30,659 nt of DNA from the NCBI GenBank assembly GCA_934716785.1, contig CAKUYM010000016.1:1-30659 (forward strand), written 5' to 3'. This document shows, one piece after another, positions 7,791 through 25,812 of this stretch. The notes beneath the pieces were generated by a model that was not told the DNA's origin, did not search any database, and worked only from the letters and a program-made list of their open reading frames with translations. Within the stretch, counting starts at the first letter, position 1. Each line of letters begins with the position of its first letter. The DNA comes from an uncultured Bacteroides sp. Lineage in GTDB: Bacteria > Bacteroidota > Bacteroidia > Bacteroidales > Bacteroidaceae. A program made the translations under genes and the position numbers.

Positions 7791-7804
7791 ATAATGATCA
7801 TTAT
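7791..7804. promoter_or_regulatory. Perfect 14-bp palindrome upstream of the SusC/D operon
   Basis: ATAATGATCATTAT is its own reverse complement and lies about 100 nt upstream of the GH43 ATG. It could be an operator for the HTCS or another dimeric regulator. Being AT-rich it could also arise by chance. If the -7 candidate at 7840-7847 is real, the palindrome would fall downstream of the transcription start. Confidence 0.3.
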
Positions 7805-7839
7805 CGTCATAAAGATGCTGACACCTCTATAAACCAATG

Positions 7840-7847
7840 CAAAAATA
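7840..7847 (-). promoter_or_regulatory. Candidate Bacteroides -7 element for the GH43-SusC-SusD operon
   Basis: On the minus strand this reads TATTTTTG, matching the Bacteroides -7 consensus TAnnTTTG. It would give a 5' leader of about 140 nt. I see no TTTG at the expected -33 spacing, so this is weak; activator-dependent PUL promoters often have a poor -33 box. Confidence 0.22.
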
Positions 7848-8067
7848 AAAATCAAAGATTATTTAGGATATTAAATATAGGTCAATAAATGAAAAATCCG
7901 TCTCAACCTAATATAAAGTATTCAGAAAAACTTGAAAGAAGATTTATTCGCATATATTTGAACAATATCTTTCTTTTATTGAACATTTTTTAGCAATCCA
8001 TTTTCGACCCATGCAACGTTTATCCCGCATAAAAACATTTGTGAATATAACACAATATCAGCATAAC

Positions 8068-8098
8068 GCCGTCACTATACAAAATAGACAGTGGCGGC
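8068..8098 (-). terminator. Imperfect hairpin after the SGNH esterase gene
   Basis: Arms 8068-8076 (GCCGTCACT) and 8090-8098 (AGTGGCGGC) pair over 9 bp with one imperfect position and a 13-nt loop. It begins about 27 nt after the esterase stop. There is no clear U-tract on either strand, and the imperfect pair is a G-U wobble only in plus-strand RNA, so termination of the leftward esterase transcript is only a possibility. Confidence 0.3.
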
Positions 8099-8125
8099 AT
8101 TATACCTTACTACAAATAATGATTT

Positions 8126-9196: not shown

Positions 9197-9311
9197 ACCC
9201 AAACACTATAATCTCAAGTTTAAGCACTCAGAAATATCAGAATATTATGTAAAAAGTAACAATATACCATGAATAAAATACCCATAGTATATTGTCCAAC
9301 CTTTTATGGCT

Positions 9312-10427
9312 TTATTTATTCAATAACGCATAAGCACACCATATGATCGGTGCCTGCCCATGATAGTCGCCGGCAATACGAGGACGATCCATATAATATT
9401 GCTTACTGTTCTTCTTGCCGGTTCCAATACAAACTTCTGTCAAATCATTGTGGTCATTGATATAATTGCATAAACCAAGCCATGCACGACGTGCCACTGG
9501 TGCATATTCCTCTTTATCCAACCAGCCGTTATTGACACCCACAATCATAGCATAGGCAAACATTGCCGATCCCGAGGTCTCTGTCCAAAAGTCAGGCTCG
9601 GTAATCAACTGATTCCAAAGTCCGTCTTTGTTGACGTATTTTTTCAGGTTATCCATCATCAACAAATATCCTTTCATAATACGTGCACGATTAGGGTCCT
9701 TTTCCGGTAGATTATAAAGCAACTCTGTCATGCCCACAGCCATCCAGCCATCACCACGTCCCCAATAATAAGGGACATCTGGTGCATGATAGAAAAGACC
9801 GTTGTTATGCTGCAACTCATCTAAATAAAGTACCATTTCTTTTGCAGCCCGATTGACATATTTCACATCACCTGTCACTTTATACGCTTCCGACTGCACA
9901 ATAGTAATCATATACATATCATCAATCCACAAACGCGTCTGCCAAGAATAGCCTTTTTTGTGCCATTTACGTTCTTCTTCATTGGCATTATCCGGCAATG
10001 CCCATTGTGTATCTGCATAAGGGAGACCAAGCTCCAAATAACGTTGATCTTTTGTGATACTGTATAAACGCAAAGGCAGACAACCAAACATATTTTGGTC
10101 TACATGAATCGGAGGAGGCAAAAGATCTTTTTCAATATGAAACAACAATTCAAAACGATTTCTCAATTGCCTTATCAGTTCTTTGTTATTTGTCTGCTCG
10201 GCAAATCGAAGCGCCCCGTACCATGTACATACTTCGGCATAATGTATGCCTTTATCAAAATAAAGCTGGTGCTTGGTTTCAAGAAGGCGCCTACTCAATT
10301 TATCCCCAATCGTTTTCGGATTAGCCCGCACGGGAAAATCTTCAAAATAGCTCTGGGCTGAAACCCCATTTGAGCACCCCAAAACAATCATCAGCAATAC
10401 ATAAATAAAATAAGATTTTTTTTTCAT
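9312..10427 (-). CDS. GH105-type unsaturated uronyl hydrolase
   Basis: This is a 371-residue protein from the ATG at 10427; an ATG at 10442 would add five residues before the signal peptide. It has an (alpha/alpha)6 barrel with the GH105 hallmarks LWIDDMYM (Asp169/Asp170) and YWGRGDGWMAVGMTELL (Asp226). Length is normal for the family. GH105 enzymes add water across the 4,5-double bond of terminal unsaturated uronic acids left by polysaccharide lyases, so a lyase partner is expected. None is recognisable in the window unless the propeller protein next door is one. The N-terminus has VLGC, which could act as a lipobox, as well as a possible type I cleavage site near VSAQ, so anchoring is uncertain. 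It lies 34 nt after the propeller gene and is probably co-transcribed with it. Confidence 0.9.
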   Translation of the reverse strand: MKKKSYFIYVLLMIVLGCSNGVSAQSYFEDFPVRANPKTIGDKLSRRLLETKHQLYFDKGIHYAEVCTWYGALRFAEQTNNKELIRQLRNRFELLFHIEKDLLPPPIHVDQNMFGCLPLRLYSITKDQRYLELGLPYADTQWALPDNANEEERKWHKKGYSWQTRLWIDDMYMITIVQSEAYKVTGDVKYVNRAAKEMVLYLDELQHNNGLFYHAPDVPYYWGRGDGWMAVGMTELLYNLPEKDPNRARIMKGYLLMMDNLKKYVNKDGLWNQLITEPDFWTETSGSAMFAYAMIVGVNNGWLDKEEYAPVARRAWLGLCNYINDHNDLTEVCIGTGKKNSKQYYMDRPRIAGDYHGQAPIIWCAYALLNK

Positions 10428-10461
10428 AAGTATAGTTTTCATTTACAATAAATATACTCGA

Positions 10462-12267
10462 TTACAGTCCAGCTACCGGTATCCAATGTGCAGTGCTCGT
10501 AGAAGAAGGATCACAAACAGCCTCTTCTACATTTTTATCAGTAATAGAAAAATTAACTAATAACTGCCCCGAAGAAATGACCAAGCTAGAACGTGGAATA
10601 GAAATTTCCGCAATATATCCGTAGTCATCCAAAAGCCTTTTATTGGTTCCATCGCATACGAAAGTTCTTACCTGCGCACCAATTTCGTTATTGTTCCATG
10701 CTTCTTTATATGTTTCAGAGCTCTTCATCCCTTTCATTGACACACGTATCCGATGTGCGCCTTCCGCTAAATCGCTATTATTGGTAGGGGATATATATAT
10801 AGTTGCATAGTCATTTTCCAATAAGTTCTTATCAAGAACTTCCACAAGGAAATAAATATTGTCGTTATCATACGAACAACGAAGTGTTCCTTGCACCTGC
10901 GAAGTTCCGCCTACAAAGAGTGCATGATCAGTTTTCGCCCATTCCTCATTGTTGCCATCCACAGTCACTTTTCTCTGCACAGCGTCAATACGGTGATTAA
11001 GAACAAACACCGCCATCTGAACAGGACCTTCTTTTGTTTTAGGCATACTTCCTACCATCAGATGAGAATCGACAACCTGTAACGATCCCCAATAGCCACC
11101 ATCGAAAGGTTGATAAACATTACCAAAATTTCGAGCAGTAGCATCACCTATCCTCAAGCAATATTTATTGGAAGAATTATAAAAAAGGACAGTCTCGCCT
11201 GACGGGAATTGATCGATATAAGGAGCCATCCCGGAATATTTAAGATTGTCATGATCGGTCGGGCCCTCTTCATCAGGAGTAAGATACTTCCAATTATTTT
11301 CATCCGAATAACAGAGTGAAATATAATACTTACCCAAGTAATTGGTTTCCAATGCAGCGGCTAAACCTTTTCCTTCATTCAGGCAGATAACTGATGGCAT
11401 TTGATGATTATAACCGACAATTCCATTTTGTTCCCATCTCATTCGTATTACATAATAAGGTAAGAAACCAAAATCCGGCTTCCATGTTTTTCCCCCATCC
11501 GTCGAAACTACCATTGCCGTTCCTGTGTCTCTACCTCTCCCTTCCTGCCCTGTACGATTACTATCGGTAAAATAACAATGTAACTCACCGGAAGGTAACT
11601 CTAACAGATAAGGTTCCCAAGTTATACCCTGATAGATTTGAATGGGATCACTCCAAGTCATGCCATTATCTTGACTACGCCTTAGTTCAACTCCCGCATC
11701 TTTTGTCAAGTGCAAATAGTTACTATTCGTCCTATAAGAAGCCACAGCCAGAATATCACCGTTAGAAAGAACTATAGCATCAGGATTAGCATAGCAATGA
11801 ATATTATTATTACCATCACTATCTACAATACTATAATCTTTAAATATTTTCCCCTTATGTTCCCATCTTTTCATATCAGAACTAATAGCATAATCACAAC
11901 TACGACCAATATTTCCACCAGACCAACCATTGTGATAGAACAAAATATAATTGCCATTCTGCATCTTTTTAACGCGTGTATAATGAGGATAAGTAGCTCC
12001 AATATCAACGTTTGGAGGAGTAATATACATACGATAGTTCATCATTAGTGAAGAACGGTGCGTAATATCAGCGTGAGAATTGGTAATCGGCGTTCCCTGA
12101 TTCAATTCCTCAATCGGTGTAATACTACAAATCGTAGGAGTTTTGGATACATCTTCTTGAGGATTCTCCACATCCTTGTTTCCGGTAGATAAATTCTCAT
12201 CATTTCCACCACAAGCTATAAGTGAAATAGCTATAGAAAAAAATAGTATAAAAAAAGCGTTTTTCAT
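10462..12267 (-). CDS. BNR/sialidase-like beta-propeller lipoprotein with C-terminal CBM9-like domain
   Basis: This is a 601-residue lipoprotein from the ATG at 12267 with lipobox LIAC (Cys19) followed by GGNDE. Residues about 60-430 form a sialidase-like propeller with two clear Asp boxes, SQDNGMTW (about 198) and STDGGKTW (about 255). Residues about 430-601 look like a CBM9-type beta-sandwich (VDGNNEEWAKTDHALFVGG, then YIAEISIPRSSL). Annotation tools would probably name it exo-alpha-sialidase. In this context, beside GH105 and GH115, a glycosidase or lyase acting on rhamnose-glucuronate or another uronate end seems more likely, because GH145 and lyase families such as PL27 are also reported as seven-bladed propellers. 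An alternative ATG at 12288 overlaps the GH115 stop. The catalytic assignment is open. Confidence 0.8.
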   Translation of the reverse strand: MKNAFFILFFSIAISLIACGGNDENLSTGNKDVENPQEDVSKTPTICSITPIEELNQGTPITNSHADITHRSSLMMNYRMYITPPNVDIGATYPHYTRVKKMQNGNYILFYHNGWSGGNIGRSCDYAISSDMKRWEHKGKIFKDYSIVDSDGNNNIHCYANPDAIVLSNGDILAVASYRTNSNYLHLTKDAGVELRRSQDNGMTWSDPIQIYQGITWEPYLLELPSGELHCYFTDSNRTGQEGRGRDTGTAMVVSTDGGKTWKPDFGFLPYYVIRMRWEQNGIVGYNHQMPSVICLNEGKGLAAALETNYLGKYYISLCYSDENNWKYLTPDEEGPTDHDNLKYSGMAPYIDQFPSGETVLFYNSSNKYCLRIGDATARNFGNVYQPFDGGYWGSLQVVDSHLMVGSMPKTKEGPVQMAVFVLNHRIDAVQRKVTVDGNNEEWAKTDHALFVGGTSQVQGTLRCSYDNDNIYFLVEVLDKNLLENDYATIYISPTNNSDLAEGAHRIRVSMKGMKSSETYKEAWNNNEIGAQVRTFVCDGTNKRLLDDYGYIAEISIPRSSLVISSGQLLVNFSITDKNVEEAVCDPSSTSTAHWIPVAGL

Positions 12268-12287
12268 AGTTCTGATTATCAAGTTCA

Positions 12288-15242
12288 TTATCTTCCTTGT
12301 CTCGTCGGTTGCGGTCCTAAATAAGAACGCTTCATTCCTCCGAAATCCAAAACTATCTTTTGCAAAACAGTCCCAGCATCACCACATATAATTTTCACCG
12401 TATGTTTGCCAGGCTTGTCGATATGCAGAGTCGTTTTATTGATTCTACAATTTCTCAGTACACTTTCATACCAAATTTGTGCATATTCAAAAGAAGATGT
12501 AGAAGGATTCATCACAGGGCCTTCGTCAATGCATACTCCATATTTCGTTTCTACATTTGTTGCTTCATGTCCGGCATACCCACGATCTTTACTCAAGGTG
12601 AATGTAGGCGACACATAGGTGTAAACATCAACCGAACCTTGCTCGAATGTATAGAAATCATATTCCAACCGAGGTGTACTGCGGCCTGCAGTCCGCTGTG
12701 GAGCAGCAGTCGGATCACCTAACTGAATAGCTGTATTTTCTACTCCCAAATTAGGAATTGTCCTCATTTGAATAGCTTTGTTCTCTACCTTCCGATGGAA
12801 GCCGGCAGCATCAATAGAGACATATCCGTTATGTTCTACAAATAAAGTATCCATTTCCGCTAATGAGGGAGAGGAAGGATTAAAAACCGAAATATAGACA
12901 TTCTCTTTCTCACCTCGTTCAGACATAATCTCTAATGTTCCGAATACCTTCTCGCCAGTCGGGACCTTATTCCAGTCAATTGAAACCTCAATACGATTTT
13001 CCGTAGCAGTTTCCCCGACCTTCTGGTTCAACAGAATCCAATTATCGGAAACTGATGCTTTCCATTTCAGAGGAGTCGCTCCTTTATTGAAAACATCTAC
13101 GTAATAGGATTGACGGAAATATGTATTGAAAGATGGCAGTGAATGGAAACTCTTTTGTCCTTTCAGAATATCTTCTCCTTCAGCCAATACACCCAAGGAA
13201 GCTGTAGATGCCAAATCTGCCTTCCGTAGAGCCGGGAGTTCAAAGTAAGCCGCGGCAAATCCCTGCTTCATGGTCATCACATGATTCCATTTACCTTCAA
13301 GCAACGAATTATATCCTTTTGTTATTACCTCCAGACTATCATAACAGACCTTGGACATTTTCTCCAATTCTGCCGTAGCTGCCCTCTGCTGAATAGAATA
13401 CCAACGATTTCTCTGACCGTCGAGGATCATACGATTCAGCAATTCACAACCTTTGACCGGATAATATAATGATTGATAATAACATGCCTTTTTATCCTCC
13501 GGCAGAGCTTTCAGAATTTTCTCTACCACATTTCCTATCCGGCGATATTCCGCCAAGCGGGTATCCACTTCACGGTAATTGGCCAGTGAAAAATCAGTAT
13601 CCGTATTCCGTTCTCTTCCATGTTTGTCGGTAGCCCATTGATACCCCCATCCCATAAACTCCGGTTTACGTGCAAAGGCCAACTTATAGAAAGAATTTAT
13701 CACATCCTGATATTCATTGCGATAATCATCTCCCAACATACCACACAACCATTCAGTACGATAGTTGGCAGCTCTTTCAAAATTAAATGAATCAATATCG
13801 AAAGCCATCGTCAAGAAGTAATCAACAGCAAACTCGCATGATTTGATATCTCCGGCATTGAGCAGCCAGATACGGTCGGCAGTCATGTCATAAGCCTTGC
13901 GCAATTCTTCATACATTAATGTAGGCGAGGTTGTATTCATCCAAAGATGATCATGAGGTTTGCCTAAATAAGAAGAATGATAGTACACACCCGAACGTCC
14001 GGAACGCTTCTGCTCTTTCGGGCTGCTCAAACGTTTCATGTACCCGTAATTATCGTCCGGCCAGATAATAGTTACGTCATCCGGAAGTTCCAATCCCTGA
14101 TCATATACATCCAATACTTCTTTATAAGGAGTAAAGGCTTGAGGAATATCTTCCGCCCGCTTACCGATGACATCCACCAACATCTGCCTTTGTGCCATCA
14201 AGGCTTCCTGAAGCATTGCCTTTCTATCAGCCATGTTGTTGCTCGCATTCATTGCCCGGTCATGCAATCCACGCAAAGCCAAAGTGTATACATTCTCAAA
14301 CGGTGCACACTCTTCCACACGCGACTTCAATACTCTGTTGACACCATTCTTATTATTTATATAGTCCCATTCGCCCATTTTATCACGTTTCCATTCACTT
14401 GCCGTATTAAACAACAACGGCTCGCAATGAGAAGATCCCATAACGATAGCAAAGCTATCTGCCACCAAACGATTCTCAGGAATACGATGAAATGCCATGG
14501 ACGCATCGTGCATGGCAGGACAAAGGTAGTTAGCCTGAAGACGAAGCAACAATTCACACACTTTTGCATATGTTTTCGGTCCGAAGTTTCCACGTTCCTT
14601 CTCAAAATTGTTTTTTGACCAGCGATAGAGTCCCCAGTCCTCATCATTGATAAAGATTCCTCTGAACTTGACTGACGGTGTTTTAGAAACGAACTTTTCA
14701 ACTTTTACATTTACCTGCTTCTGCTGTTTGATGGGAGCATCCGCCCACCAATACCAAGGTGACACACCTATTGCTTTTGAGATGGAGAGAAGTCCGTAAG
14801 CAGTACCGCGTCTGTCACTTCCGGCAACAACAATTGCTTTCTTGATACCCGGAACAGGATTGTTGACCACTTCTATCATATAACGCTCCCAACCTCCGGC
14901 TATGACCGTTGTATCTATCTTATTTCTTGATGCCAAGGCATTAATCCATCCGCTTTTCCCTATAGTGCCGGCAATAATGGCATAACGTGCGGAGACTTTC
15001 CCCGGCTTACTTTCGTCCATCTTCAACTCTTGACCTGTCACACGACGAACATCATCTACCAAAAGAGATGCACTCTTACGCACAACCGTCGCATCTTCTC
15101 CATCAAAACATACAACGGCATTCGCTGAAGAAGAGACAATAGGAAAACTATTCTTTCCGGTTGTTGTATCGAGTAAAACTTGTGCTTTTGCTGAAATCAG
15201 ACCACAACAAAATAATCCTAACAATAAAATTCTATTTTTCAT
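12288..15242 (-). CDS. GH115 alpha-1,2-glucuronidase
   Basis: This is a 984-residue protein from the ATG at 15242 (MKNRILLLGLF), with a signal peptide ending near SAKAQ. The length is typical of GH115. Family motifs are plain: GSDRRGTAYGLLSISKAIGV (about 141-160) and SPWYWWADAP (161-170), RGIFINDEDWGL (194-205), GSSHCEP (269-275), GLHDRAM (325-331), WPDDNYGYM (394-402) and HSSYLGKPHDHLWM (422-435). A C-terminal beta-rich region follows and ends in GPQPTRQGR. GH115 enzymes remove D-glucuronate or 4-O-methyl-glucuronate from xylan or arabinogalactan; without xylanases in view, arabinogalactan-type glycans fit better. The stop overlaps or nearly touches the next gene, so tight co-translation with the propeller gene is likely. 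The upstream gap of 129 nt after ApbE may hold a promoter, but I could not identify one. Confidence 0.95.
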   Translation of the reverse strand: MKNRILLLGLFCCGLISAKAQVLLDTTTGKNSFPIVSSSANAVVCFDGEDATVVRKSASLLVDDVRRVTGQELKMDESKPGKVSARYAIIAGTIGKSGWINALASRNKIDTTVIAGGWERYMIEVVNNPVPGIKKAIVVAGSDRRGTAYGLLSISKAIGVSPWYWWADAPIKQQKQVNVKVEKFVSKTPSVKFRGIFINDEDWGLYRWSKNNFEKERGNFGPKTYAKVCELLLRLQANYLCPAMHDASMAFHRIPENRLVADSFAIVMGSSHCEPLLFNTASEWKRDKMGEWDYINNKNGVNRVLKSRVEECAPFENVYTLALRGLHDRAMNASNNMADRKAMLQEALMAQRQMLVDVIGKRAEDIPQAFTPYKEVLDVYDQGLELPDDVTIIWPDDNYGYMKRLSSPKEQKRSGRSGVYYHSSYLGKPHDHLWMNTTSPTLMYEELRKAYDMTADRIWLLNAGDIKSCEFAVDYFLTMAFDIDSFNFERAANYRTEWLCGMLGDDYRNEYQDVINSFYKLAFARKPEFMGWGYQWATDKHGRERNTDTDFSLANYREVDTRLAEYRRIGNVVEKILKALPEDKKACYYQSLYYPVKGCELLNRMILDGQRNRWYSIQQRAATAELEKMSKVCYDSLEVITKGYNSLLEGKWNHVMTMKQGFAAAYFELPALRKADLASTASLGVLAEGEDILKGQKSFHSLPSFNTYFRQSYYVDVFNKGATPLKWKASVSDNWILLNQKVGETATENRIEVSIDWNKVPTGEKVFGTLEIMSERGEKENVYISVFNPSSPSLAEMDTLFVEHNGYVSIDAAGFHRKVENKAIQMRTIPNLGVENTAIQLGDPTAAPQRTAGRSTPRLEYDFYTFEQGSVDVYTYVSPTFTLSKDRGYAGHEATNVETKYGVCIDEGPVMNPSTSSFEYAQIWYESVLRNCRINKTTLHIDKPGKHTVKIICGDAGTVLQKIVLDFGGMKRSYLGPQPTRQGR

Positions 15243-15371
15243 ATATACGTTAGATTGACAATTAATAACGCAAAGTAAGGCAAAAAACAATAAAACGAAT
15301 ACAAAAAACAGACCTATAAATGGTAGAATATGTTCAAAAAAGTCTCTAATTTAGTTAGACAGGCATTGTGA

Positions 15372-16187
15372 TCATACATACACTCGATATGACGCATACA
15401 TAGCCATTAAATCTTTACGTTGTTCACTATCTGCCGCAAACAAAGCGGTAGACAATATTTCTCCTATCGCTCCATTGGTTGTAACGACAGATATCCGGCT
15501 GACACCTTCCACCAATTTCCCACTTTGAGGAGAAACGATATGTCGGCGACCGGGAGAGTCATTGCCAGAGGTTGTAAGACACTCGTTATGAAGGAGTATG
15601 TCATTCACTTTCCAGCCCGTTCCTACCGGGTGATTCCCCATGGCAAGGACAGAACTGTTTCCCATACTTATCAAGGCATGCTCTATCGCAAACTCATCCA
15701 GTATACTTTTAACTGTTTCCAAGGCATACCCTTTAAGAAAACCCGATAAGTTGACAGTGACTCCCAGCTGTGAGAAAAAAAGACTATGATCTTCGACTGA
15801 TAAATGCACCGAATGTATCGTGTCCTGATTATAATTATCGGAATGGACAGTTACATCGAAACAATCCAAAGTCTTCTCGTTATACTCCAGACATAAATCA
15901 ATCATCGAGTAAAGTTCTTCGCTAAGAACAACCGGAGAAATAGAAGCTGTCCGGTTGACAAAAGACAATTCGCTGTCCGGATCATAAAAGTTTGCTATCT
16001 TTTCCAACCGGCACAGTGCATCATAAATCCGATTGACCACAGACAGCAATTCTCCTTCTTTCCGGAGACTGTACAAGATAATATCCACCCGCGTATGCAT
16101 AGAAAGAAACCAAGCATAAAACAAGGAGTTGCCGTCATCGGATGGCTTATATAGATGTTGAATTGTAGTCTGCATCATATAAAACAT
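15372..16187 (-). CDS. Divergent ApbE-like FAD:protein FMN transferase, no signal peptide
   Basis: This is a 271-residue protein. ApbE-family features are visible: NLSGFLKGYALE (normally DlGgiaKGya), the glycine-containing ALISMGNSSVLAMG, LTTSGND and HIVSPQSG (normally HiidPrtG). Near the C-terminus GEILSTALF has Glu where most family members have the metal-binding Asp (aDalsTal). ApbE transfers FMN from FAD to a Thr of target proteins, usually outside the cytoplasm and usually as a signal-peptide-bearing lipoprotein. Here there is no signal peptide, and an in-frame stop lies two codons upstream of the ATG, so no extension is possible. ATGs at 16178 and 16175 are alternative starts. It lies 124 nt after the DUF1080 gene across a large hairpin. 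No FMN-acceptor protein is evident in the window. Confidence 0.8.
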   Translation of the reverse strand: MFYMMQTTIQHLYKPSDDGNSLFYAWFLSMHTRVDIILYSLRKEGELLSVVNRIYDALCRLEKIANFYDPDSELSFVNRTASISPVVLSEELYSMIDLCLEYNEKTLDCFDVTVHSDNYNQDTIHSVHLSVEDHSLFFSQLGVTVNLSGFLKGYALETVKSILDEFAIEHALISMGNSSVLAMGNHPVGTGWKVNDILLHNECLTTSGNDSPGRRHIVSPQSGKLVEGVSRISVVTTNGAIGEILSTALFAADSEQRKDLMAMYASYRVYV

Positions 16188-16193
16188 AAATTA

Positions 16194-16263
16194 GGCACGA
16201 ATTACACAGATTACACGGCTTTTATCTCATTAACACAACCGTGAAACCCATATAACCCGTGCC
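16194..16263 (-). repeat. 25-bp-arm inverted repeat between DUF1080 and ApbE genes (RNA hairpin)
   Basis: The left arm is 16194-16218 (begins GGCACGAATTACAC) and the right arm is 16239-16263 (ends CCCGTGCC), with a 20-nt loop. Eighteen of 25 positions are Watson-Crick pairs. Of the seven others, six become G-U wobbles only in minus-strand RNA, the strand on which these genes are transcribed; one is a true mismatch. It resembles intergenic palindromic repeats of the GGCACGAATTACAC type that I recall from Bacteroides genomes, but this needs a search. It may end or stabilise the DUF1080 transcript. It finishes 6 nt before the ApbE ATG, so it could also limit ApbE translation. Confidence 0.7.
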
Positions 16264-16311
16264 AGCATAAGAACAGGAGCTTCAATACATCTCCCAATAA
16301 CTTAAGACAAA

Positions 16312-17667
<1,356 letters not shown>

Positions 17668-17671
17668 CTAT

Positions 17672-19090
17672 TTATAATTTATAAAATTCATCCCAACCTT
17701 TGCGTGGCGGAAGTCCCGCCAACATTGCATTGGCAAATTCATTATTCGTAATCTGCTTCGTACGAGGATCAAAGAACAACTGTGTATTAAGTCGTTGAGC
17801 TATTACACCCAATGAGAATACCTGGCTCAGTACACCATTGATTTCGAACGGCGAGCGTGTCTTTTCAATGCCGTTGCATGCCAGCAAGAAGTTCTCGAAG
17901 TGATTGGAAGGACTTTTAGGAACTTCCGGCAACTTATCCGCCATCTCTTTCGCTTTTTCTTCCGGGATAATAGACAATGTACTGCCATGGCTACCTCCCT
18001 TGAAAATCAAATCTTTGGTATAAATAATCTTTCCTGGATTCAATTTAGATTTCGGAGTATCACCTTGATTGGTCACCGGGATATTCGGATCTAATCCCGA
18101 AACGCCATAACCGGCAGGAATTGGAGGAAGATTGTCCAGACCGTCATACCAAGTTATGTCTACCGGCGGCATTCCTTTGCGCTGTGGGAAGCGGAAAAGA
18201 ATCGTGGAAGAATAGGGGAAGAAATAATCATTATGCCCCTTTGCGTATTGCATGGTGACTTCATAAGGCAGTCCCAGTTCAAGGAACTCATGAGCCGTAT
18301 CAAGGATATGCGCTCCCCAGTCGCCCAATGCGCCCATACCGAAATCATACCAGCAACGCCATTGCCCCAAATGATAATCCTTATTATATTCGTGATAAGG
18401 TACAACCCCGAGCCAAGTGTCCCAGTCCATATCTTTTGGCAGTTGCTGTCCCGAAGGAAGCTTATAGATATTAGTATCCCATTTATGCCAACGACGCGGG
18501 TTATTCATGTGAGCAGTGATAGCAGTAACATCCTTGATAATCCCCGCATCCATCCAAGCCTTGAATTGGAAATAGTTCGCTTCAGAATGTCCTTGGTTTC
18601 CTACTTGAGTAACCTGATTCGGCCGTTTAAGCACAGCCTGCATCAACAATTCCGCTTCGTAGAAAGTACGTGCCAACGGTTTCTCCACATACACATGCTT
18701 TCCCGATGCCAACGCCAACATACTGATCGGGAAGTGCGAATGGTCGGGAGTAGCAATCGCTACGGCGTCAAACTCGTTGCCGGCCTTATCAAACATCTGG
18801 CGGAAATCCCTGAACTGTTTAGCTTTCGGATATTTGGCCATTATCTTCTGTGTATGTTTGGCACCCATATCCACATCACATAACGCCACCACTTCCACCA
18901 TACCTGTCCGTGCAAAGTCTTCGATAATCTGTTCACCACGATTACCGATACCGATATAAGCAATCTTCACTTTATCGCCTTTCCTTTTTGTAGGCGAAGC
19001 GGTTTGTGCATGTAATAATTCACCGGTTCCTAATGCCAGTCCGGCAGAAGCCATTGACATTGTTTTCAAAAAATCTCTTCGTGTTACCAT
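17672..19090 (-). CDS. Tat-exported Gfo/Idh/MocA oxidoreductase, 3-keto-glycoside module
   Basis: This is a 472-residue protein that begins with a twin-arginine signal (TRRDFLK) followed by an Ala/Gly/Leu-rich stretch. A Rossmann fold with GIGNRG (about 47-52) binds NAD(P), and VEKPLA (Glu136-Lys137-Pro138) is the family's catalytic EKP motif. The C-terminal alpha/beta domain has GDWGAHILD (His261, Asp264), the usual substrate-binding HxxD. Tat export allows folding with the nucleotide bound before secretion. The family includes sugar dehydrogenases and GH109-like NAD-dependent glycosidases; paired with the DUF1080 gene 10 nt downstream, oxidation of a glycoside at C3 is the most likely job. 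The substrate is not predictable. It starts 61 nt after the small membrane protein gene. Confidence 0.92.
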   Translation of the reverse strand: MVTRRDFLKTMSMASAGLALGTGELLHAQTASPTKRKGDKVKIAYIGIGNRGEQIIEDFARTGMVEVVALCDVDMGAKHTQKIMAKYPKAKQFRDFRQMFDKAGNEFDAVAIATPDHSHFPISMLALASGKHVYVEKPLARTFYEAELLMQAVLKRPNQVTQVGNQGHSEANYFQFKAWMDAGIIKDVTAITAHMNNPRRWHKWDTNIYKLPSGQQLPKDMDWDTWLGVVPYHEYNKDYHLGQWRCWYDFGMGALGDWGAHILDTAHEFLELGLPYEVTMQYAKGHNDYFFPYSSTILFRFPQRKGMPPVDITWYDGLDNLPPIPAGYGVSGLDPNIPVTNQGDTPKSKLNPGKIIYTKDLIFKGGSHGSTLSIIPEEKAKEMADKLPEVPKSPSNHFENFLLACNGIEKTRSPFEINGVLSQVFSLGVIAQRLNTQLFFDPRTKQITNNEFANAMLAGLPPRKGWDEFYKL

Positions 19091-19151
19091 AAATTATTCT
19101 TTTTCATTGATATTGATTTAAATCTTCATTGTTTATGTGCAGAATGGTTAA

Positions 19152-19400
19152 TTACCTGCGCCTGCCTTTCTTTCTAAACAACCTCTGTGCTCCATAAAAC
19201 AAGAGACGTAAAATCCCCCAAAAAGCATAAAGCACAAAAGTGAATATGATTATATAAAAAATAGAAGTTATCATCTCCATAAATGGTGCATGATAAGTAA
19301 TAATCGCATAAACATGCAGCACATTAGCTATCAAGAAACAGACGAGTAAAGTTATCAACTCTATTCTCTTGCGCCGTGCGGTTATAATCGTATCTTTCAT
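19152..19400 (-). CDS. Small two-helix inner-membrane protein between the oxidoreductase genes
   Basis: This 82-residue protein has two hydrophobic segments, about 13-36 (IELITLLVCFLIANVLHVYA) and 43-68 (ITSIFYIIIFTFVLYAFWGI), a short connecting loop, and a strongly basic C-terminus ending RKKGRRR. The charge pattern predicts both ends in the cytoplasm. The ATG overlaps the stop of the upstream oxidoreductase by 4 nt (ATGA), which suggests translational coupling and supports it as a real gene. I do not recognise a family and see no heme, metal or flavin motif; there is no Cys pair and only one periplasm-side His. It could anchor the oxidoreductases to the membrane or take part in quinone-linked reoxidation, but nothing in the sequence proves either. 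Confidence 0.75.
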   Translation of the reverse strand: MKDTIITARRKRIELITLLVCFLIANVLHVYAIITYHAPFMEMITSIFYIIIFTFVLYAFWGILRLLFYGAQRLFRKKGRRR

Positions 19401-20692
19401 ATCGCGTCGGGTGTTTTTACAGATTGATGGTTCAGATAGTCTATTTTATATTCATCAGGGAAATAAAGTGTCCGTTCTTCTTCCAACGCCTGATGCCCTA
19501 ACAAACAAAGCATACTTGCATAATATCCTTCTTCCGCTATTCTTTCCGGTTGTTTCTGTGTGATGACAGCCTCCACAAAAGCTTCCAACAGCAATGATGT
19601 ACCGTCACTCTTGGGACGTTCTCCGGTAATGAATTCTCCTTTATTCTCATTAGCCGTTTCCGGAGCCCAACTTGTTCCGGCAAATGGCAAAGAGTCGAAC
19701 ACTTTGTTTTCCCAGTCATTGACCATTTGCAGGAAAGCCGGTGCAGGAGCTACATTCTCAAAGTAGTATTTCCCCTTTTCCGGTTCTACCGTGCCGAGAT
19801 TGCCCATGATCTGCTCTTCCAGTCCATAGAATTTGTTGGAGATGACAGAATCAAACGTCATCTTCACTCCATCATCAAATACATACACACAACTCACATT
19901 GTCATACACTTCTCTACCATCTTTCCAATAAGTAATGGCACCATGCCCCATCACCTTCTCTGGGATTTTGCGCAAAGCCCAACTTCCTATCTGAAGCTGG
20001 TGGCAAGCAAGCTCCGTCATCAGCCCTTTCGAGAATTCCTTGTAAAGGCGCCAGTTTATCAACCGTTCCAAATTGGGTGAAGGCACGGGACGTCTCCAGT
20101 CACCATTCCGGTTCCAGAAAGTACGGATGGCATTTATCTCACCGAAAGTGCCAGCATGAATCATCTCCATTGCCTTGATGTAACGAGGATCGAACAAACG
20201 TTGCTGTCCTGTGAAGAATATCTTTCCCGTACTACGGTGCTTCTGATATATACGATAGCACTCTTCCATCGTGAAACCTATCGTTTTTTCACAAAACACA
20301 TGCTTTCCCGCATCAAAAGCATCCAACACTATTTTGCAATGCGAACTGAGAGGGGTCGCTACGAGCACGGCATCTATCGACTTATCTTCCAGCACTTCCC
20401 GATAGTCGCCATACACTTTGGCATTAGGGGCAAGCGCCAGCGCTTTTTCGATAGACGGTTTATAAATGTCACATAATGCAACAATATCGACTTTAGGGTT
20501 TTTAGTAAGGAATCCCATCAAAAACTGTCCCCGGGAACCGGGTCCGATAATTGCCAGACGGCATTTTTCATTTGAGGTACTCGTCACCTCCGAAAAAGCA
20601 GATAGCCAAGGGCTTGCTGCAAGAAGAGTGCCAGCCCCGGCTATACCCAAATTCTTTAAAAAATCCCGCCTACTAATAGGGGTATGTTTCAT
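19397..20692 (-). CDS. Second Tat-exported Gfo/Idh/MocA oxidoreductase (EKT variant)
   Basis: This is a 431-residue protein with a twin-arginine signal (SRRDFLKNLG) and hydrophobic core, and a Rossmann motif GPGSRG (about 50-55). The catalytic loop reads CEKTIGF instead of the usual EKP; Lys136 is kept. The second domain has ACHQLQIGSW, where the common HxxD motif appears as HxxQ (His231, Gln234). It clearly differs from the 472-residue oxidoreductase downstream, so the pair may act on different sugars or positions, or in opposite directions (oxidising before cleavage, reducing after). It starts 32 nt after the GH43 gene, and its stop overlaps the small membrane protein ATG. NAD-linked redox chemistry on sugars is well supported; the exact reaction is not. 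Confidence 0.9.
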   Translation of the reverse strand: MKHTPISRRDFLKNLGIAGAGTLLAASPWLSAFSEVTSTSNEKCRLAIIGPGSRGQFLMGFLTKNPKVDIVALCDIYKPSIEKALALAPNAKVYGDYREVLEDKSIDAVLVATPLSSHCKIVLDAFDAGKHVFCEKTIGFTMEECYRIYQKHRSTGKIFFTGQQRLFDPRYIKAMEMIHAGTFGEINAIRTFWNRNGDWRRPVPSPNLERLINWRLYKEFSKGLMTELACHQLQIGSWALRKIPEKVMGHGAITYWKDGREVYDNVSCVYVFDDGVKMTFDSVISNKFYGLEEQIMGNLGTVEPEKGKYYFENVAPAPAFLQMVNDWENKVFDSLPFAGTSWAPETANENKGEFITGERPKSDGTSLLLEAFVEAVITQKQPERIAEEGYYASMLCLLGHQALEEERTLYFPDEYKIDYLNHQSVKTPDAI

Positions 20693-20724: not shown

Positions 20725-21732
20725 TCAGTTTTTAAAGACAGGTGCTTTTTGTGTCCCGTAAGAAGGAGAACCTCCCTCTACATAGGGCCATCCTTCTTTA
20801 TCCCACTTAATCTGATCCAGCAACAGGACGCGCCCGTTCTCCGGAGTAGATTTTGAGAATCCATGATACAAAAGCCAGTCTTGTCCGGCATCATCCCGAA
20901 CGATTTGTGAACCATGTCCGTTGCCCACAAAATGCCCATTCGCACCTATCACCAAAGAATAGCCATTCTTCAACATCGGTTTGCCGGTCTTGTCTTTATA
21001 CGGACCCCATACCTTTTTAGACCGTCCAACAACAACCTTATATGTACTTCTCACCCCTTCACAACAGCTTCCCACAGAGGCGAACATATAATAATATCCG
21101 TCATGCTTATGAATATAGACAGCCTCAAAAGCAGTCCCTGCTATTCTCTTTTTTTTCGCTCCCGGCATCAATGACAAGCCATCCGCCGTCAACTCAATGA
21201 CATATATCCCCCGAAAGCTGCCCCATACCAAGTAGTTCCGTCCCTTATATGGCAAGTAACTGGGATCGATTGAATTCTGCACACCAATCTCATTACTCCG
21301 GAACATCTTACCATGATCTGTAAAAGGGCCTTGCGGAGAATCGGCAGTAGCCACTCCAATGCCGCACGTTTGTTCTCCTCCCCACACCGACATCGCATAA
21401 TAAAGTACATATTTACCATTAATATAATTAATGTCGGGTGCCCAAATTCCGGCTTTAGGTTCAAACTTAGGACGGGTCTTATTTGTGAATGCCGTATTAC
21501 AATACGTCCATTCCACCAAATCTTTCGACTTCATTATCGGAACGTTTCTGGTAGATTCAGTAGCATACACATAAAAATAGCCATCCGCAGCCTTAATCAC
21601 CGTAGGATCGGGCATGGCAATATCTACAACGGGATTCTTATAACTCACTGTGGATTTTGTCTGCGCTTTCCCCTGCGAAATCCAAGGACCTATCATGAAA
21701 ACGAGAACAAACAAATTTACAAACTTTCTCAT
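20725..21732 (-). CDS. Secreted GH43 enzyme (arabinanase-like)
   Basis: This is a 335-residue single-domain GH43 protein from the ATG at 21732, with a signal peptide ending near GKAQ. The catalytic residues are visible: Asp42 in MPDPTVI (base), Asp156 in SIDPSYL (modulator) and Glu203 in AFEAVYI (acid), with His273 in GNGHGS. The FASVGSCCEG...YKVVVGRS block matches the arabinanase-type GH43 pattern and closely resembles the lipoprotein GH43 at the left of the window, so the two are probably paralogs of one subfamily, one surface-anchored and one periplasmic. It is the first enzyme gene after the HTCS, 57 nt downstream, and precedes the oxidoreductases by 32 nt. Arabinose-specific activity is the best guess, not shown. 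Confidence 0.92.
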   Translation of the reverse strand: MRKFVNLFVLVFMIGPWISQGKAQTKSTVSYKNPVVDIAMPDPTVIKAADGYFYVYATESTRNVPIMKSKDLVEWTYCNTAFTNKTRPKFEPKAGIWAPDINYINGKYVLYYAMSVWGGEQTCGIGVATADSPQGPFTDHGKMFRSNEIGVQNSIDPSYLPYKGRNYLVWGSFRGIYVIELTADGLSLMPGAKKKRIAGTAFEAVYIHKHDGYYYMFASVGSCCEGVRSTYKVVVGRSKKVWGPYKDKTGKPMLKNGYSLVIGANGHFVGNGHGSQIVRDDAGQDWLLYHGFSKSTPENGRVLLLDQIKWDKEGWPYVEGGSPSYGTQKAPVFKN

Positions 21733-21789
21733 CAAACCTTTGTTTTTAATAGACTTTTTTTACTTAATATTTAGAGTCATAAATCAATG

Positions 21790-24700
21790 TTAACTTACAA
21801 AATCTTTAGGCAATACTCCAAACTGCTTCTGGAAGCACTTGGCAAAATAAGACGGAGAATTAAATCCTACCATATAGCAAATCTCATTCACCCGATTTTC
21901 TCCCTCTTTCAATAATTGAGCCGCCCTCTTCAAACGCTCCAAGCGAAGATATTCATTCGGGCTCAAATCCAGCACTCCTTTTATCTTTCGGTAGAAATTG
22001 GAACGGCTCATATTCAAGCCATCCGCCATGTCGTCCATGCTAAACTCCGGATTACTGAAATTTGCCTGAATCACGTCATTCAGCCTCTTTATAAAGTCCT
22101 CATCAGCTTTCGTCAAAGCCATCGTATTGGCAGCCACAAAAGGAGACTGTGCAAAGGCCTTACGCAACTTCTCCCTGTTCTGAATAAGATTGGAAGCACA
22201 AGCCTGCAGGTATTCCACAGAGAACGGCTTCTCCAAATAAGCATCGGCCCCCAGTTCCATTCCCTCTATCTTTGACTGGATATTGGTTTTCGCTGTCAAC
22301 AGGATGACAGGGATATGGCTATAATTCAAATTCGACTTAACCGTCTTACACAATTCAAAACCATCCATCACAGGCATCACAACATCGCTGATCACCAGAT
22401 TCACATAATTGCCATCCAGCACCTGCAATGCCTCCGCACCATTGGTAGCAGTCAGCACCGTATACTCTTTCGACAACTGACGCACCACAAAGGCAAGCAT
22501 ATCCGGATTGTCTTCCACGACCAATACTGTAGAACGGTCATCCGCCTTTTCCGTTTCTCCGACAACGATCTCGGTCATCCTGTCTGTTTCAATCTCCTGT
22601 TCCGATGTTAAAGTTATTGTCATATCCTGAACGATCGGCAAGGTCAGACAGAAGACATTGCTTTCTTCCCCTTTTTCCATCACCAGAGTCCCCTGATGCA
22701 ATTCCGCCAATGAACGGGAGAGAGCCAAGCCGATTCCTGTGCCGGTAGTCACCTTTCCATCTTCCTGTTCATTGAAACGAACGAAAGGCTTGAATATTTC
22801 TTCTTTCATTTCATCGGGAATAATCACTCCGTCATTCTCCGTACGAATACAGAATGATTTGTCGTCGTTATCCGCTTCCGGCACCTCCAAAGAGATACGC
22901 ACGTAGCTTCCGGCATACTTCACTCCATTATTCAGCAGGTTACTGATAATTTTTGTAAATGCCTCTCGGTTCACATGCGCATAAAAATCCCTTTCAGGCA
23001 CTTGCAAAGTGAATTCCAATCCTTTCTGTTTGGCAAGGGAAGTAAAACGCACATGAGTTTCTTTCAGCACCTCCGTTATATCGCATTTCGCGAAATTCAA
23101 ACGGAATCCCTGACTTTCCGTTTTACGGAAATCAAGCAACTGGTTAGTCAGGTTCAGCAGCCGTTCCGTATTCTGTTTCATTACATTCAGGTCTTCGCGA
23201 GTTTCCGCATCGACTTGCTTCTTCAGTATTATATTCTCCAGCGGACCTTTAATCAAAGTCAACGGTGTACGTATTTCATGAGCCACATTCGTAAAGAAAT
23301 CAATCTTCGCATGATAGACCTCACGTTCCTTCTCCTGCTCGAATTTCTCCATCTGCCGGCGATGCTTCCGGTTGCTACGCCTTTTGAAATACATAAATAC
23401 ATACAGAGAACAACCTACAATCAGCAAAGCATATACGATATAAGCCCAGATAGAGAGATAGAAAGGTGGAAGAATATGTATTTTCAATGATACCCCCTTT
23501 TCATTCCACACTCCGTCACTATTGGATACTTTCACCCGAAAAGTATAATTGCCATACCGCAGATTGGAATAAGTAACGATAGGACTTTCGCCCAACGTCA
23601 GCCAATCCTCGTCAAAACCATCCAGCCTATACATGACCTTGCTCATTCTCGGAGCCAGGAAATCCAATGCCGCCACACGAAAAGAGAAAGAGTTCTGATT
23701 GGAGTGCAGCAGGAGTTCATCAGAGAAAGTGATGCTCTTCTCCAACGGAGAACCCGGTTCGCCCACATGCACCTCCTTACCAAAAAGCAGAAAGTCTGTA
23801 ATCACGATAGATGACAAGGATTTGTTCTCTGAAAAAGTCTTAGGGTTGAAAGCAACAAATCCATCAATACTTCCTAAATAGATTGTACCATCTTCCGTCT
23901 TAAAACTCGAACGATAATTAAACTGCTCACCCAGCAAACCATTGGAAGTGGTATATACCTTTATGGCACCGGTGGTAGGTTGGAAACAAACCAAACCGTT
24001 ATTGGTTGTCAGCCAGAAAAGCCCCTCCTTATCCTCCACAATCTGATAAACCACATCGTTAGGCAGTCCGTCAGCCGAATCATAGCCGGTAAAGGTTTCC
24101 GTATCCGGATGGAACAAACAGAAACCGCCGCCCTGTGTCGTCAGCCAAACCTGCCGATGAGAATCCTCAAAGATACTGACCACCTTATCGTAAGGAAGAC
24201 TTCCCGGATTATTCTCGTCATGCAGATAATTCTTCCATTTTTTCTCACTCACATTATAACAGTAAGCACCATTTGCATAAGTTGCCAGCCAAAGGTTTCC
24301 ACCTGAATCTTCTTTTATATCATATACAAATCGTCCGTTCAATTCCGGCACCCGGTCAAAATCATCAGACTGCCTGTTGTAACGTAGAAGTCCGAATAAT
24401 GTGCCCAAATAAATATCTCCCGTCGTTGTCCGGCAAATAGAGAAGACACTGTTATCTATCAAAGAACGGGGCGAATCTGTCTTCTGATATGTTTTAACGA
24501 CAGTGCCCGTGCGTGTATCCACCACTTTCACTCCTTTCGAGAAAGTTCCCACCCACAGATAATCGTCAACCATGCACAAACCGTGCACATTTGTAAAAGC
24601 ATTACTTGGTGTGAAGAAAGAGAAAGTCTTGGTCTTAGGGTTAAAACGATTCAATCCGCCATCCTCCGTGCCAATCCACAAAATTCCCTGATTGTCCTGA

Positions 24701-25812
24701 CAGAACTCACGCACACGCTTTCCATGCAGCCCGTCTTCTGTACCTTTCGGATAATATTTTTCAAAATTCGTATAAAAACGGGGATAATAATTCACCCCAC
24801 CGAAATAAGAACCAATCCAAATTCCTCTTTCACGGTCTATGCACAGTGAATAAATAGCGTTATCAGACAAAGAATAAGGGTCATTGATAGAACTCCGTAA
24901 ATGAGTATATTCCCCCTGTCGGAGATTATAAATATAAAGTCCTGATTCGGCACCAATCCACAACTCATTATCCGAAGCGACCAATAATTCACGGCAAAAG
25001 ACAGACTCCCCCGATTCATCTGCCAGAAGTAAATCATGCAGTTTGCCCGAAGTCAAATTCAATTCTTTCACTCCGCCCTTCAAAGAGCCTATATACAAAC
25101 AGTTGTATGCGCCTTTCACAATACTGGTCACCACATCATTCGCATATACCTCCTTGTTGTCCTCCGGAGACAGGTAAGGATGAAGCGTTTTCAAACGGTC
25201 TTTCGAATAAAAAAGCCCGTCTCCATAACAGCCGATCCAAAGAGTTCCGCTATTGTCGAAAGCGAAAGTCTGCACATTGGTAGTAAGAAAAGAGAAGTTT
25301 TTTAGTGTATAGTTTTGAAGCCTTTCTTTTTCCAGTTCATAACAGAAGAGCCCTTGAGATTCTACAGCTATCCAGACACATTCCTGATTATCACCGGATA
25401 TGGCAGTCACTGTATGTTCTATTTTCGTATTTTCCGCGCTCAAGGTCGTGAAATGTTCAAAGAAGTCCTTCTCCGGATAATAGATATAAAGCCCCACATC
25501 CGTTCCTACCCAGATATTTCCTTTCTCGTCCTCATAAAGCGCTGTAATAAAATTGTTGCCGATACTCCGTTGGCTACGACCATCATGCTTGAATTTGCGG
25601 AACGACAAGCCGTCGTATCTATCCAGTCCATCCTTTGTGCCAAACCACATGAAGCCCTGCTTATCCTGCAGAATCGCATTTACCGTATTCTGAGATAATC
25701 CGTTCTGCACATTCAGATTCTTAAAATAATAATGCTCGTTCGCCACTTGTTGTGCGCTACGACTTATCTGACAGCAAATAAAACAGAGCAAAAGTATTAG
25801 TACTTTTTTCAT
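21790..25812 (-). CDS. Hybrid two-component system (HTCS) sensor-regulator of the PUL
   Basis: This is a 1340-residue one-protein two-component system. The order is: signal peptide (1-20); two-component regulator propeller repeats forming two periplasmic propellers (about 30-680, with repeated WIG/WVGT..GL units); Y_Y_Y domain (about 700-782); membrane helix (about 788-809); dimerisation domain with phospho-acceptor His845 in VAHEIRTPLT; ATPase domain with the N box NLLNNGVKYA (about 958-967) and GTGIGLALS; receiver domain with Asp1143 in ISDVVMPVMDG; and AraC-type HTH (about 1240-1340). All key residues are intact. HTCS proteins bind a specific oligosaccharide in the periplasm and activate the local PUL. 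It lies upstream of, and in the same direction as, the enzyme genes, and is likely to control both gene groups. Confidence 0.97.
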   Translation of the reverse strand: MKKVLILLLCFICCQISRSAQQVANEHYYFKNLNVQNGLSQNTVNAILQDKQGFMWFGTKDGLDRYDGLSFRKFKHDGRSQRSIGNNFITALYEDEKGNIWVGTDVGLYIYYPEKDFFEHFTTLSAENTKIEHTVTAISGDNQECVWIAVESQGLFCYELEKERLQNYTLKNFSFLTTNVQTFAFDNSGTLWIGCYGDGLFYSKDRLKTLHPYLSPEDNKEVYANDVVTSIVKGAYNCLYIGSLKGGVKELNLTSGKLHDLLLADESGESVFCRELLVASDNELWIGAESGLYIYNLRQGEYTHLRSSINDPYSLSDNAIYSLCIDRERGIWIGSYFGGVNYYPRFYTNFEKYYPKGTEDGLHGKRVREFCQDNQGILWIGTEDGGLNRFNPKTKTFSFFTPSNAFTNVHGLCMVDDYLWVGTFSKGVKVVDTRTGTVVKTYQKTDSPRSLIDNSVFSICRTTTGDIYLGTLFGLLRYNRQSDDFDRVPELNGRFVYDIKEDSGGNLWLATYANGAYCYNVSEKKWKNYLHDENNPGSLPYDKVVSIFEDSHRQVWLTTQGGGFCLFHPDTETFTGYDSADGLPNDVVYQIVEDKEGLFWLTTNNGLVCFQPTTGAIKVYTTSNGLLGEQFNYRSSFKTEDGTIYLGSIDGFVAFNPKTFSENKSLSSIVITDFLLFGKEVHVGEPGSPLEKSITFSDELLLHSNQNSFSFRVAALDFLAPRMSKVMYRLDGFDEDWLTLGESPIVTYSNLRYGNYTFRVKVSNSDGVWNEKGVSLKIHILPPFYLSIWAYIVYALLIVGCSLYVFMYFKRRSNRKHRRQMEKFEQEKEREVYHAKIDFFTNVAHEIRTPLTLIKGPLENIILKKQVDAETREDLNVMKQNTERLLNLTNQLLDFRKTESQGFRLNFAKCDITEVLKETHVRFTSLAKQKGLEFTLQVPERDFYAHVNREAFTKIISNLLNNGVKYAGSYVRISLEVPEADNDDKSFCIRTENDGVIIPDEMKEEIFKPFVRFNEQEDGKVTTGTGIGLALSRSLAELHQGTLVMEKGEESNVFCLTLPIVQDMTITLTSEQEIETDRMTEIVVGETEKADDRSTVLVVEDNPDMLAFVVRQLSKEYTVLTATNGAEALQVLDGNYVNLVISDVVMPVMDGFELCKTVKSNLNYSHIPVILLTAKTNIQSKIEGMELGADAYLEKPFSVEYLQACASNLIQNREKLRKAFAQSPFVAANTMALTKADEDFIKRLNDVIQANFSNPEFSMDDMADGLNMSRSNFYRKIKGVLDLSPNEYLRLERLKRAAQLLKEGENRVNEICYMVGFNSPSYFAKCFQKQFGVLPKDFVS

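Follow-up and report, generated by a model that had tools for sequence, protein, structure and literature searches.

The DNA considered here (the window, 30,659 nucleotides in full) comprises positions 1 to 30,659 of contig CAKUYM010000016.1, from the GenBank assembly GCA_934716785.1 of an uncultured Bacteroides sp. Within a Bacteroides-type polysaccharide utilization locus (PUL), five open reading frames (ORFs), all on the minus strand, encode a twin-arginine translocation (Tat)-type oxidoreductase of the Gfo/Idh/MocA family (Gfo1), a two-helix membrane protein (tm82), a second Tat-type Gfo/Idh/MocA oxidoreductase (Gfo2), a tandem DUF1080 protein and an ApbE-like protein (Table 1). Both oxidoreductases exceed the cut-off of the NCBIfam TAT-signal model TIGR01409 (23.4 for Gfo1 and 21 for Gfo2, against 16.7), and tm82 matches no family above its cut-off in the Pfam and NCBIfam model searches. 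ORFs, Pfam matches and TAT-model matches agree with a sequence-only reading of the window, which had described these five genes as consecutive on one strand. The genes make up two units: Gfo1, tm82 and the ApbE-like gene are a conserved three-gene set inherited together (hereafter the triad), and Gfo2-DUF1080 is the other.

The two units emerge from a sample of 149 genomes of the genus, whose completeness is not given and whose counts are uncorrected for kinship. A genome was scored as positive at more than 40 bits for tm82, more than 140 bits for the ApbE subfamily, and E values of at most 1e-120 for Gfo1, 1e-150 for Gfo2 and 1e-100 for DUF1080; this left out two of 47 tm82 rows (24 and 22.9 bits), 21 of 70 ApbE matches (at most 56.4 bits) and two more ApbE matches under the 140-bit line (75.1 and 26.7 bits). 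By these thresholds tm82 is present in 36 genomes, the ApbE subfamily in 38, Gfo1 in 37, the Gfo2 type in 48 and the DUF1080 type in 49. All 36 tm82 genomes have both Gfo1 and a subfamily ApbE, and the two ApbE genomes without tm82 both have a cut contig (Gfo1 lies at the contig end in G305, and DUF1080 extends beyond the contig start in G296). Jaccard values are 0.95-0.97 within Gfo1, tm82 and ApbE, 0.94 for Gfo2 and DUF1080, and 0.65-0.68 between the units. TatC was found in 144 of the 149 genomes, and none of the five TatC-less genomes has the triad.

In these genomes tm82 adjoins Gfo1 in 45 of 45 places, and an intact ApbE lies within 8 kb of tm82 in 39 of these. As for the other six, the distance is 8.3 kb in G250 and about 44 kb in G230, ApbE is on another contig in G242 and G297 and elsewhere on the contig in G324, and the G309 contig stops shortly after DUF1080; the first five genomes keep a subfamily ApbE though it stands apart from the Gfo1-tm82 pair. 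At the operon in G324 there is a short ApbE remnant with stop codons (G324:C1:4187418-4187546, 26.7 bits), the intact subfamily ApbE being on the same contig. Beside the unlinked ApbE of G230 (G230:C1:7755-9341) and G297 (G297:C88:7098-8730) the tandem DUF1080 gene is broken, with two stop codons in its first half and an open second half. No DUF1080 match was scored in the tm82 genomes G300 and G313 (the G313 copy is near a contig end), and no Gfo2 in G297 and G300. As a check, the sequence-only reading had proposed a search for co-occurrence of the 82-residue protein and the short ApbE with Gfo/Idh/MocA-DUF1080 pairs. Co-occurrence proves to be conserved well beyond close relatives, and Gfo1-tm82-ApbE is a real, specific partnership.

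Table 1. Features of the window (nt, nucleotides; aa, amino acids; GH, glycoside hydrolase family)
Feature	Coordinates	Strand	Remarks
Gfo1, Tat-type Gfo/Idh/MocA oxidoreductase, 431 aa	19397..20692	-	Pfam GFO_IDH_MocA
tm82, two-helix membrane protein, 82 aa	19152..19400	-	4-nt ATGA overlap with Gfo1 stop
Gfo2, Tat-type Gfo/Idh/MocA oxidoreductase, 472 aa	17672..19090	-	Pfam GFO_IDH_MocA; 61-nt gap after tm82
Tandem DUF1080 (3keto-disac_hyd), 449 aa, Sec-type signal	16312..17661	-	Two Pfam domain matches; 10-nt gap after Gfo2
ApbE-like protein, 271 aa	15372..16187	-	Pfam ApbE; 124-nt gap after DUF1080
GH43 glycosidase	20725..21735	-	PUL context; 32 nt directly upstream of Gfo1
Hybrid two-component system sensor/regulator	21790..25812	-	PUL context
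GH115	12288..15290	-	PUL context; directly downstream of ApbE-like gene
BNR/CBM9, GH88-type hydrolase, GDSL esterase, second GH43, IPT/TIG protein, SusC-type TonB receptor	1244..12288	-	Remaining PUL

The triad is retained through changes in gene order, and several orders exist across Bacteroidales. When species genomes were scanned with an ApbE-like protein alignment, 46 loci were obtained; with further loci, 78 stretches were compared in total, the window included and some places taken twice. The Gfo1-tm82 pair is present in 58 of the 78, with the 4-nt overlap in 41 and the full five-gene order of the window in 32 of these 58; that order recurs in loci labelled Bacteroidaceae, Prevotellaceae and Muribaculaceae, and the PUL around it varies. 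The 20 stretches without the pair include contig-cut loci and ApbE genes lying apart, and L041 is counted among them only because its tm82 ORF call starts early. The remaining 26 pair-bearing stretches are arranged as Gfo1-tm82-DUF1080-ApbE-Gfo2 (five), Gfo1-tm82-ApbE-Gfo2-DUF1080 (three), Gfo1-tm82-ApbE without adjoining Gfo2 or DUF1080 (four, of which L028 and L046 are complete and L025 and L037 are truncated at contig ends), ApbE-Gfo1-tm82 in which Gfo2 may or may not be present (four), DUF1080-Gfo2-ApbE-Gfo1-tm82 (L174), DUF1080-ApbE-Gfo1-tm82 in which an additional Gfo protein separates ApbE from DUF1080 (L173), and Gfo1-tm82-Gfo2-ApbE (L034). In seven of them no ApbE was called alongside: L154, L156 and L157, where it is elsewhere in the genome, L155, L175 and L176, where the contig ends, and L172. 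On a tree of 53 different Gfo1 sequences, six changes are needed for the five order groups, one of them owed to the contig-cut L155. In wider samples tm82 is found in 10 of 201 genomes of the GTDB family, and there are clear matches in 4 of 345 genomes of the phylum (the centre genome included), plus two marginal rows. In two genomes of the phylum sample, G566 and G373, ApbE, Gfo1 and tm82 are accompanied by DUF1080 and an additional Gfo protein, differently ordered, and their Gfo1 lies deep on the tree.

A second, paralogous set (ApbE', Gfo1' and tm82') occurs in 8 of the 149 genomes, its Gfo1' being 49-50% identical to Gfo1. Four such loci were retrieved, two of them with another Gfo after tm82'. 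In one (L146, 1-15999) the set is accompanied by two more Gfo-type proteins, a glucosamine-6-phosphate-isomerase-type protein, an amidohydrolase and an MFS transporter; judged by these genes it looks like an amino-sugar locus, and it is possibly a second oxidative glycan system in Bacteroides. Neither G300, with the paralogous set only, nor the L034 genome, with the ordinary one, contains a DUF1080 match at 1e-20, so the triad is not strictly tied to DUF1080. It might be argued that the whole neighbourhood is due merely to inheritance of the PUL as a block, and the order does largely track the Gfo1 tree. However, the PUL surroundings change while the triad stays, there are several gene orders, ApbE co-occurs even when unlinked, and a paralogous triad is found at another locus. 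Block inheritance alone, which we regard as extremely improbable, is rejected on the unlinked ApbE, the order changes and the two-unit split.

In the second unit, Gfo2 is nearest to the BT_2158 glycoside 3-dehydrogenase model NF058561 (282.3 bits, under the curated cut-off of 750) and to the solved chains 8tdf and 8tdh. The tandem DUF1080 protein matches PF06439 at 311 bits over two stretches, above the gathering score, and is a close homologue of the solved chain 4jqt (934.5 bits). In the literature, BT3469 is mentioned in passing as 4JQT, and BT_3470 is listed, again in passing, as a dehydrogenase; BT3469/BT3470 may be part of the B. thetaiotaomicron copy of this module. The family matches and solved relatives support assignment of Gfo2-DUF1080 to the C3-oxidation type of glycoside cleavage, in keeping with the 3-keto route that the sequence-only reading had named for such pairs. 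Judging from the families, Gfo2 would oxidise the glycoside at C3 in the periplasm with its bound nicotinamide adenine dinucleotide (NAD), DUF1080 would then cleave the 3-keto glycoside, and the hydride would probably go back to the 3-keto sugar, so that the cycle would be redox-neutral. Such a return of the hydride in the C3 route would agree with the GH4 cycle, whose four steps (oxidation, elimination, hydration and reduction) are described as running on enzyme-bound NAD.

At the thresholds used, 14 of the 47 genomes that have both Gfo2 and DUF1080 lack the triad, and no ORF in the 14 stretches around these pairs has Gfo1, tm82 or ApbE as its best model. Because of these genomes, Gfo2-DUF1080 appears able to do without the triad. 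The sequence-only reading had been prepared to give up a redox partner if co-occurrence failed beyond close relatives or if the oxidoreductases were redox-neutral with no need of one; the association is conserved, and the second point holds in part, for these 14 genomes. It is possible, if on the unlikely side, that everything here is redox-neutral and that the triad is a second glycoside-oxidising specificity together with a cofactor-loading or quality-control factor for Tat export. The triad-less pairs and the GH4 cycle would suit such an arrangement, as would a periplasmic NADP-containing glucose-fructose oxidoreductase that, according to the title of a cited reference, requires cofactor binding for efficient Tat export. 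It leaves unaccounted for, however, why the partner inherited alongside Gfo1 and tm82, in 36 of 36 genomes, should have the ApbE fold instead of being a general factor, and it gives no reason for a membrane protein.

Some features of the triad-less pairs may be recorded in their own right. In L198-L203 their surroundings are conserved and not of PUL type, with an adjacent conserved membrane protein of about 490 residues, which we take to be MBOAT-like; ribosomal-looking genes are nearby in most of these loci. Open frames of about 480-510 residues run antisense to Gfo2 in L191 (7222-8712), L192 (5698-7146) and L193 (6273-7799); these are probably a codon-bias effect, and Gfo2 is hidden in the ORF tally of the three loci since the longer antisense ORF was kept.

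Within the triad, all 30 aligned Gfo1 rows retain the NAD-binding G-x-G, K136 (the E-K motif Lys) and E227/H231, residues that in this family include catalytic ones. It scores 95 bits against NF058561, whose cut-off is 750. The signal region of Gfo1 is conserved almost like its mature part (pairwise identity 0.676 and 0.732, ratio 0.92, 38 loci), to be compared with 0.555 and 0.766 (ratio 0.72, 38 loci) in Gfo2 and 0.397 and 0.778 (ratio 0.51, 31 rows) in DUF1080. In addition, the signal region ends in a PWL motif (residues 28-30) in 27 of 27 rows. Such conservation suggests that the signal segment does more than direct export, and that it may be an anchor or be recognised by a partner.

The membrane protein has two hydrophobic stretches; its Lys/Arg averages over 41 rows are 4.6 (N-terminal part), 0.6 (loop) and 5.5 (C-terminal part). 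Since Lys and Arg are abundant in both termini and few in the loop, both ends are predicted to be cytoplasmic (N-in/C-in). E14, Y58 and R65 do not vary, and 40 of the 41 rows have E42; one Cys, present in 37 of the 41, is replaced in L172, L173 and L174. No His is conserved in the 41 rows, and no relative in the Protein Data Bank (PDB) was found up to E = 5. The possibility of tm82 as a haem protein is rejected for want of a conserved His and of a PDB relative.

The ApbE-like protein probably starts at 16175 rather than 16187, since 14 of 16 aligned rows use as start an alternative ATG 12 nt inside the ORF. It matches PF02424 at 102 bits (cut-off 25.6), and scores 22.4 bits against the NCBIfam ApbE equivalog NF007774, under the 498-bit cut-off. 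Its AlphaFold model has the ApbE fold, with a predicted local distance difference test (pLDDT) score of 94.7, and all 39 PDB matches of the model at E of at most 0.001 are ApbE/Ftp entries (with a TM-score, normalised by the model, of about 0.8 to 4xdt). The catalytic Ser207 and His216 are invariant in 42 of 42 rows, and in a separate alignment the His is Asn in L174. Position 68, Tyr or Phe (27 rows), is aligned with E. coli Tyr60, which marks the transferases that bind flavin adenine dinucleotide (FAD) (PMC4767422). The metal ligands reported there as critical residues (PMC4767422) are altered: the ligand Asp (E. coli D280, FmnB D301) is Glu243 here and Glu in 42 of 42 rows and also in L173 and L174, and the second ligand, Thr, is Ile in L040, L148 and L149. 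The Ser-His spacer is 9 residues long as against the usual 16, and GG is replaced by GNSS; L173 and L174 have the Glu in common with the others, but a long spacer and GESS. No Sec-type hydrophobic stretch precedes the ApbE domain in any of 56 rows, by a measure that detects such a stretch in 32 of 35 DUF1080 rows. The flavinylation motif D-x-x-[ST]-G-A-[ST] is found in none of the 15 window proteins tested, in none of 1839 ORFs (at least 100 residues) from related loci, and in none of 48 Gfo1, 49 tm82 and 56 ApbE rows, and a flavinylated neighbour with the canonical motif is rejected on this ground. Given the fold and the aromatic residue 68 on the one hand, and the altered metal site, the lack of a Sec-type signal and the lack of a target motif on the other, it is likely that the protein binds FAD and doubtful that it carries out classic transfer of flavin mononucleotide (FMN).

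The ApbE-like protein might nevertheless be an active flavin transferase that places FMN on Gfo1, tm82 or another protein at a non-canonical site, making up a covalent flavin relay. An enzyme of this kind would be expected to have what is seen in the fold, in Ser207/His216 and in the aromatic residue at the place of Tyr60 (PMC4767422), and a cytosolic ApbE acting on a cytosolic target is on record (PMC12052999). We consider it unlikely, in view of the missing motif, of the replacement of the metal-ligand Asp by Glu throughout, with Thr changed to Ile and His to Asn in the loci named above, and of Thr7 of tm82, which is Lys in L042, L148, L172-L174 and L177. Thr7 is ruled out as a flavinylation site by the same six loci.

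There are two further scenarios in which the triad would handle electrons. In the first, it is an electron-transfer complex: the signal-less ApbE-like FAD protein is exported together with Gfo1 through Tat, takes the hydride from the NADH of Gfo1 and passes electrons to menaquinone at tm82. This supplies a route for reoxidation of periplasmic NADH, it uses an ApbE of the FAD-binding type, and PaoABC is a case of a partner carried through Tat by another subunit. Set against it are the lack in tm82 of a conserved His, a fully conserved Cys and a PDB relative, and no ApbE is known to us to serve in carrying electrons; on balance the scenario seems quite unlikely. In the second, for which the prospects are similarly slim, the triad would be a new kind of periplasmic NADH-oxidising complex, in which Gfo1 is Tat-exported, anchored in the membrane and loaded with NAD, with the ApbE-fold FAD protein either exported with Gfo1 or docked at tm82 and electrons moving from sugar C3 to the quinone pool; if it were true, extracytoplasmic glycan cleavage would feed respiration. 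The sequence-only reading had suggested that the membrane protein and the flavin transferase may link this pathway to the membrane electron carriers or to a flavin cofactor. As a conserved association with Gfo1 the idea is supported; as a link to covalent flavin by the canonical route or to electron carriers it is not supported, there being no canonical motif in the window proteins or related ORFs, no Sec-type signal on ApbE, an altered metal site, and no positive sign of electron transfer in tm82.

The interpretation that we tentatively favour, with a little less than even confidence, is that of two separable units in which the triad is a membrane-held Gfo complex with a probably FAD-binding ApbE paralogue, for which a role in maturation or as a redox partner is likelier than one as a transferase. 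From gene content, conservation, the two-unit split, the predicted fold and the residue changes we infer the localisation, enzymatic steps and partner role as follows. Gfo1 would be exported folded through Tat and would probably remain attached to the inner membrane through tm82 and its own unusually conserved signal segment, and the ApbE-like paralogue would most likely serve Gfo1 as a maturation or redox partner, not as a classic flavin transferase. Uncleaved Tat anchors are known (PMC7317946), and redox enzyme maturation proteins exist for Tat cargo (PMC6708511).

Several observations weigh against this interpretation. The paralogous Gfo1' keeps PWL, but its RR pair is replaced by LR and its signal ends in a lipobox-like LTSC, so that an uncleaved anchor is not the sole reading of the PWL conservation. 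The AlphaFold model of Gfo1 (mean pLDDT 72) is below 50 for residues 1-27 and gives no confidence in the anchor region, and the conserved residues of tm82 give no sign of a cofactor ligand. In the ApbE-like protein, the retained Ser and His make transfer activity possible, the Glu in place of Asp may itself serve as a metal ligand, and the signal measure is blind to Tat signals, because it flagged 0 of 48 Gfo1 and 1 of 42 Gfo2 rows. Should Gfo2-DUF1080 be self-sufficient, this interpretation does not explain why the triad is needed. With respect to co-occurrence, tm82 is no more than 8 kb from 39 of the 47 ApbE genes of the subfamily and eight lie away from it, and the Fisher value of 1.5e-32 treats related genomes as independent. 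Finally, G646 of the phylum sample (L172), whose completeness is not given, has Gfo1-tm82 on a 5.7-kb contig and no subfamily ApbE, its best match being of canonical type, elsewhere, at 51.6 bits; it is a possible exception to the co-occurrence.

The surrounding PUL reads on the minus strand as regulator, GH43, the five genes, GH115, BNR/CBM9, GH88-type hydrolase, GDSL esterase, GH43, IPT/TIG protein and SusC-type receptor, the GH115 gene being of what we take to be the alpha-glucuronidase family. A Bacteroides finegoldii record (NZ_OY725916.1, L001) has the five genes in identical order, with 86.6% identity over 97% of the window. The PUL is found in this 91.5-kb record along with an RHS protein and a gene of the acetate-CoA-ligase type; the record, labelled plasmid 14, non-mobilizable, may represent chromosomal or integrated DNA. 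At the edge of the window (28250-30653) an Imm65 immunity protein, a JAB1-type toxin and an RHS-repeat piece follow one another, an Rhs-type toxin/immunity set adjoining the PUL.

In gut bacteria, cleavage of glycans by oxidation has recently come to be recognised as an alternative to glycosidases. A three-gene unit with an altered ApbE offers a genetic handle on whether oxidative glycan pathways need a membrane or flavin partner. In the open-licence literature no paper was found to describe the triad in its title or at the start of its abstract. In annotated records, this signal-less ApbE subfamily with its changed metal site carries the name FMN transferase. It shares with the ApbE/Ftp FAD:protein FMN transferases the fold, PF02424 and the active-site Ser and His, and differs from them in the lack of a Sec-type signal, the Asp-to-Glu change, the spacer of 9 (long in L173/L174), GNSS and the absence of a target motif nearby; most characterised ApbE members have a signal peptide or lipobox, and cytosolic members exist.

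Among known systems, the flavinylation-associated extracytosolic electron-transfer clusters (Meheust et al. 2021, PMC8238504) are similar in that a gene of the ApbE family lies next to a membrane protein and to redox proteins that are exported. That survey kept clusters only if one of four target genes had a signal peptide or lipidation site (PMC8238504), and for this reason the triad family probably falls outside it; 'Gfo' and 'Bacteroid' are absent from the text of PMC8238504, and 'Gfo' from that of a second flavinylation survey. LacABC with DUF1080 in Caulobacter and Pedobacter likewise combines periplasmic C3 oxidation with a proposed DUF1080 hydrolase, but the dehydrogenase is a three-component, membrane-bound one in place of Gfo enzymes. 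Zymomonas glucose-fructose oxidoreductase, which is among the PDB relatives, is a Tat-exported Gfo protein with bound nucleotide. It is not a glycoside 3-dehydrogenase, and to our knowledge it has no membrane or ApbE partner. In B. thetaiotaomicron, the periplasmic glycoside 3-dehydrogenase BT2158 is required for disaccharides (PMC11300592), and BT2157 is a DUF1080 3-ketotrehalose hydrolase (PMC9007349). The present locus has in common with BT2157/BT2158 a Tat-type Gfo oxidoreductase and a DUF1080 protein; it differs in that its DUF1080 is tandem and not single, that its oxidoreductases score 282 (Gfo2) and 95 bits (Gfo1) against the cut-off of 750, and that Gfo1-tm82-ApbE is added.

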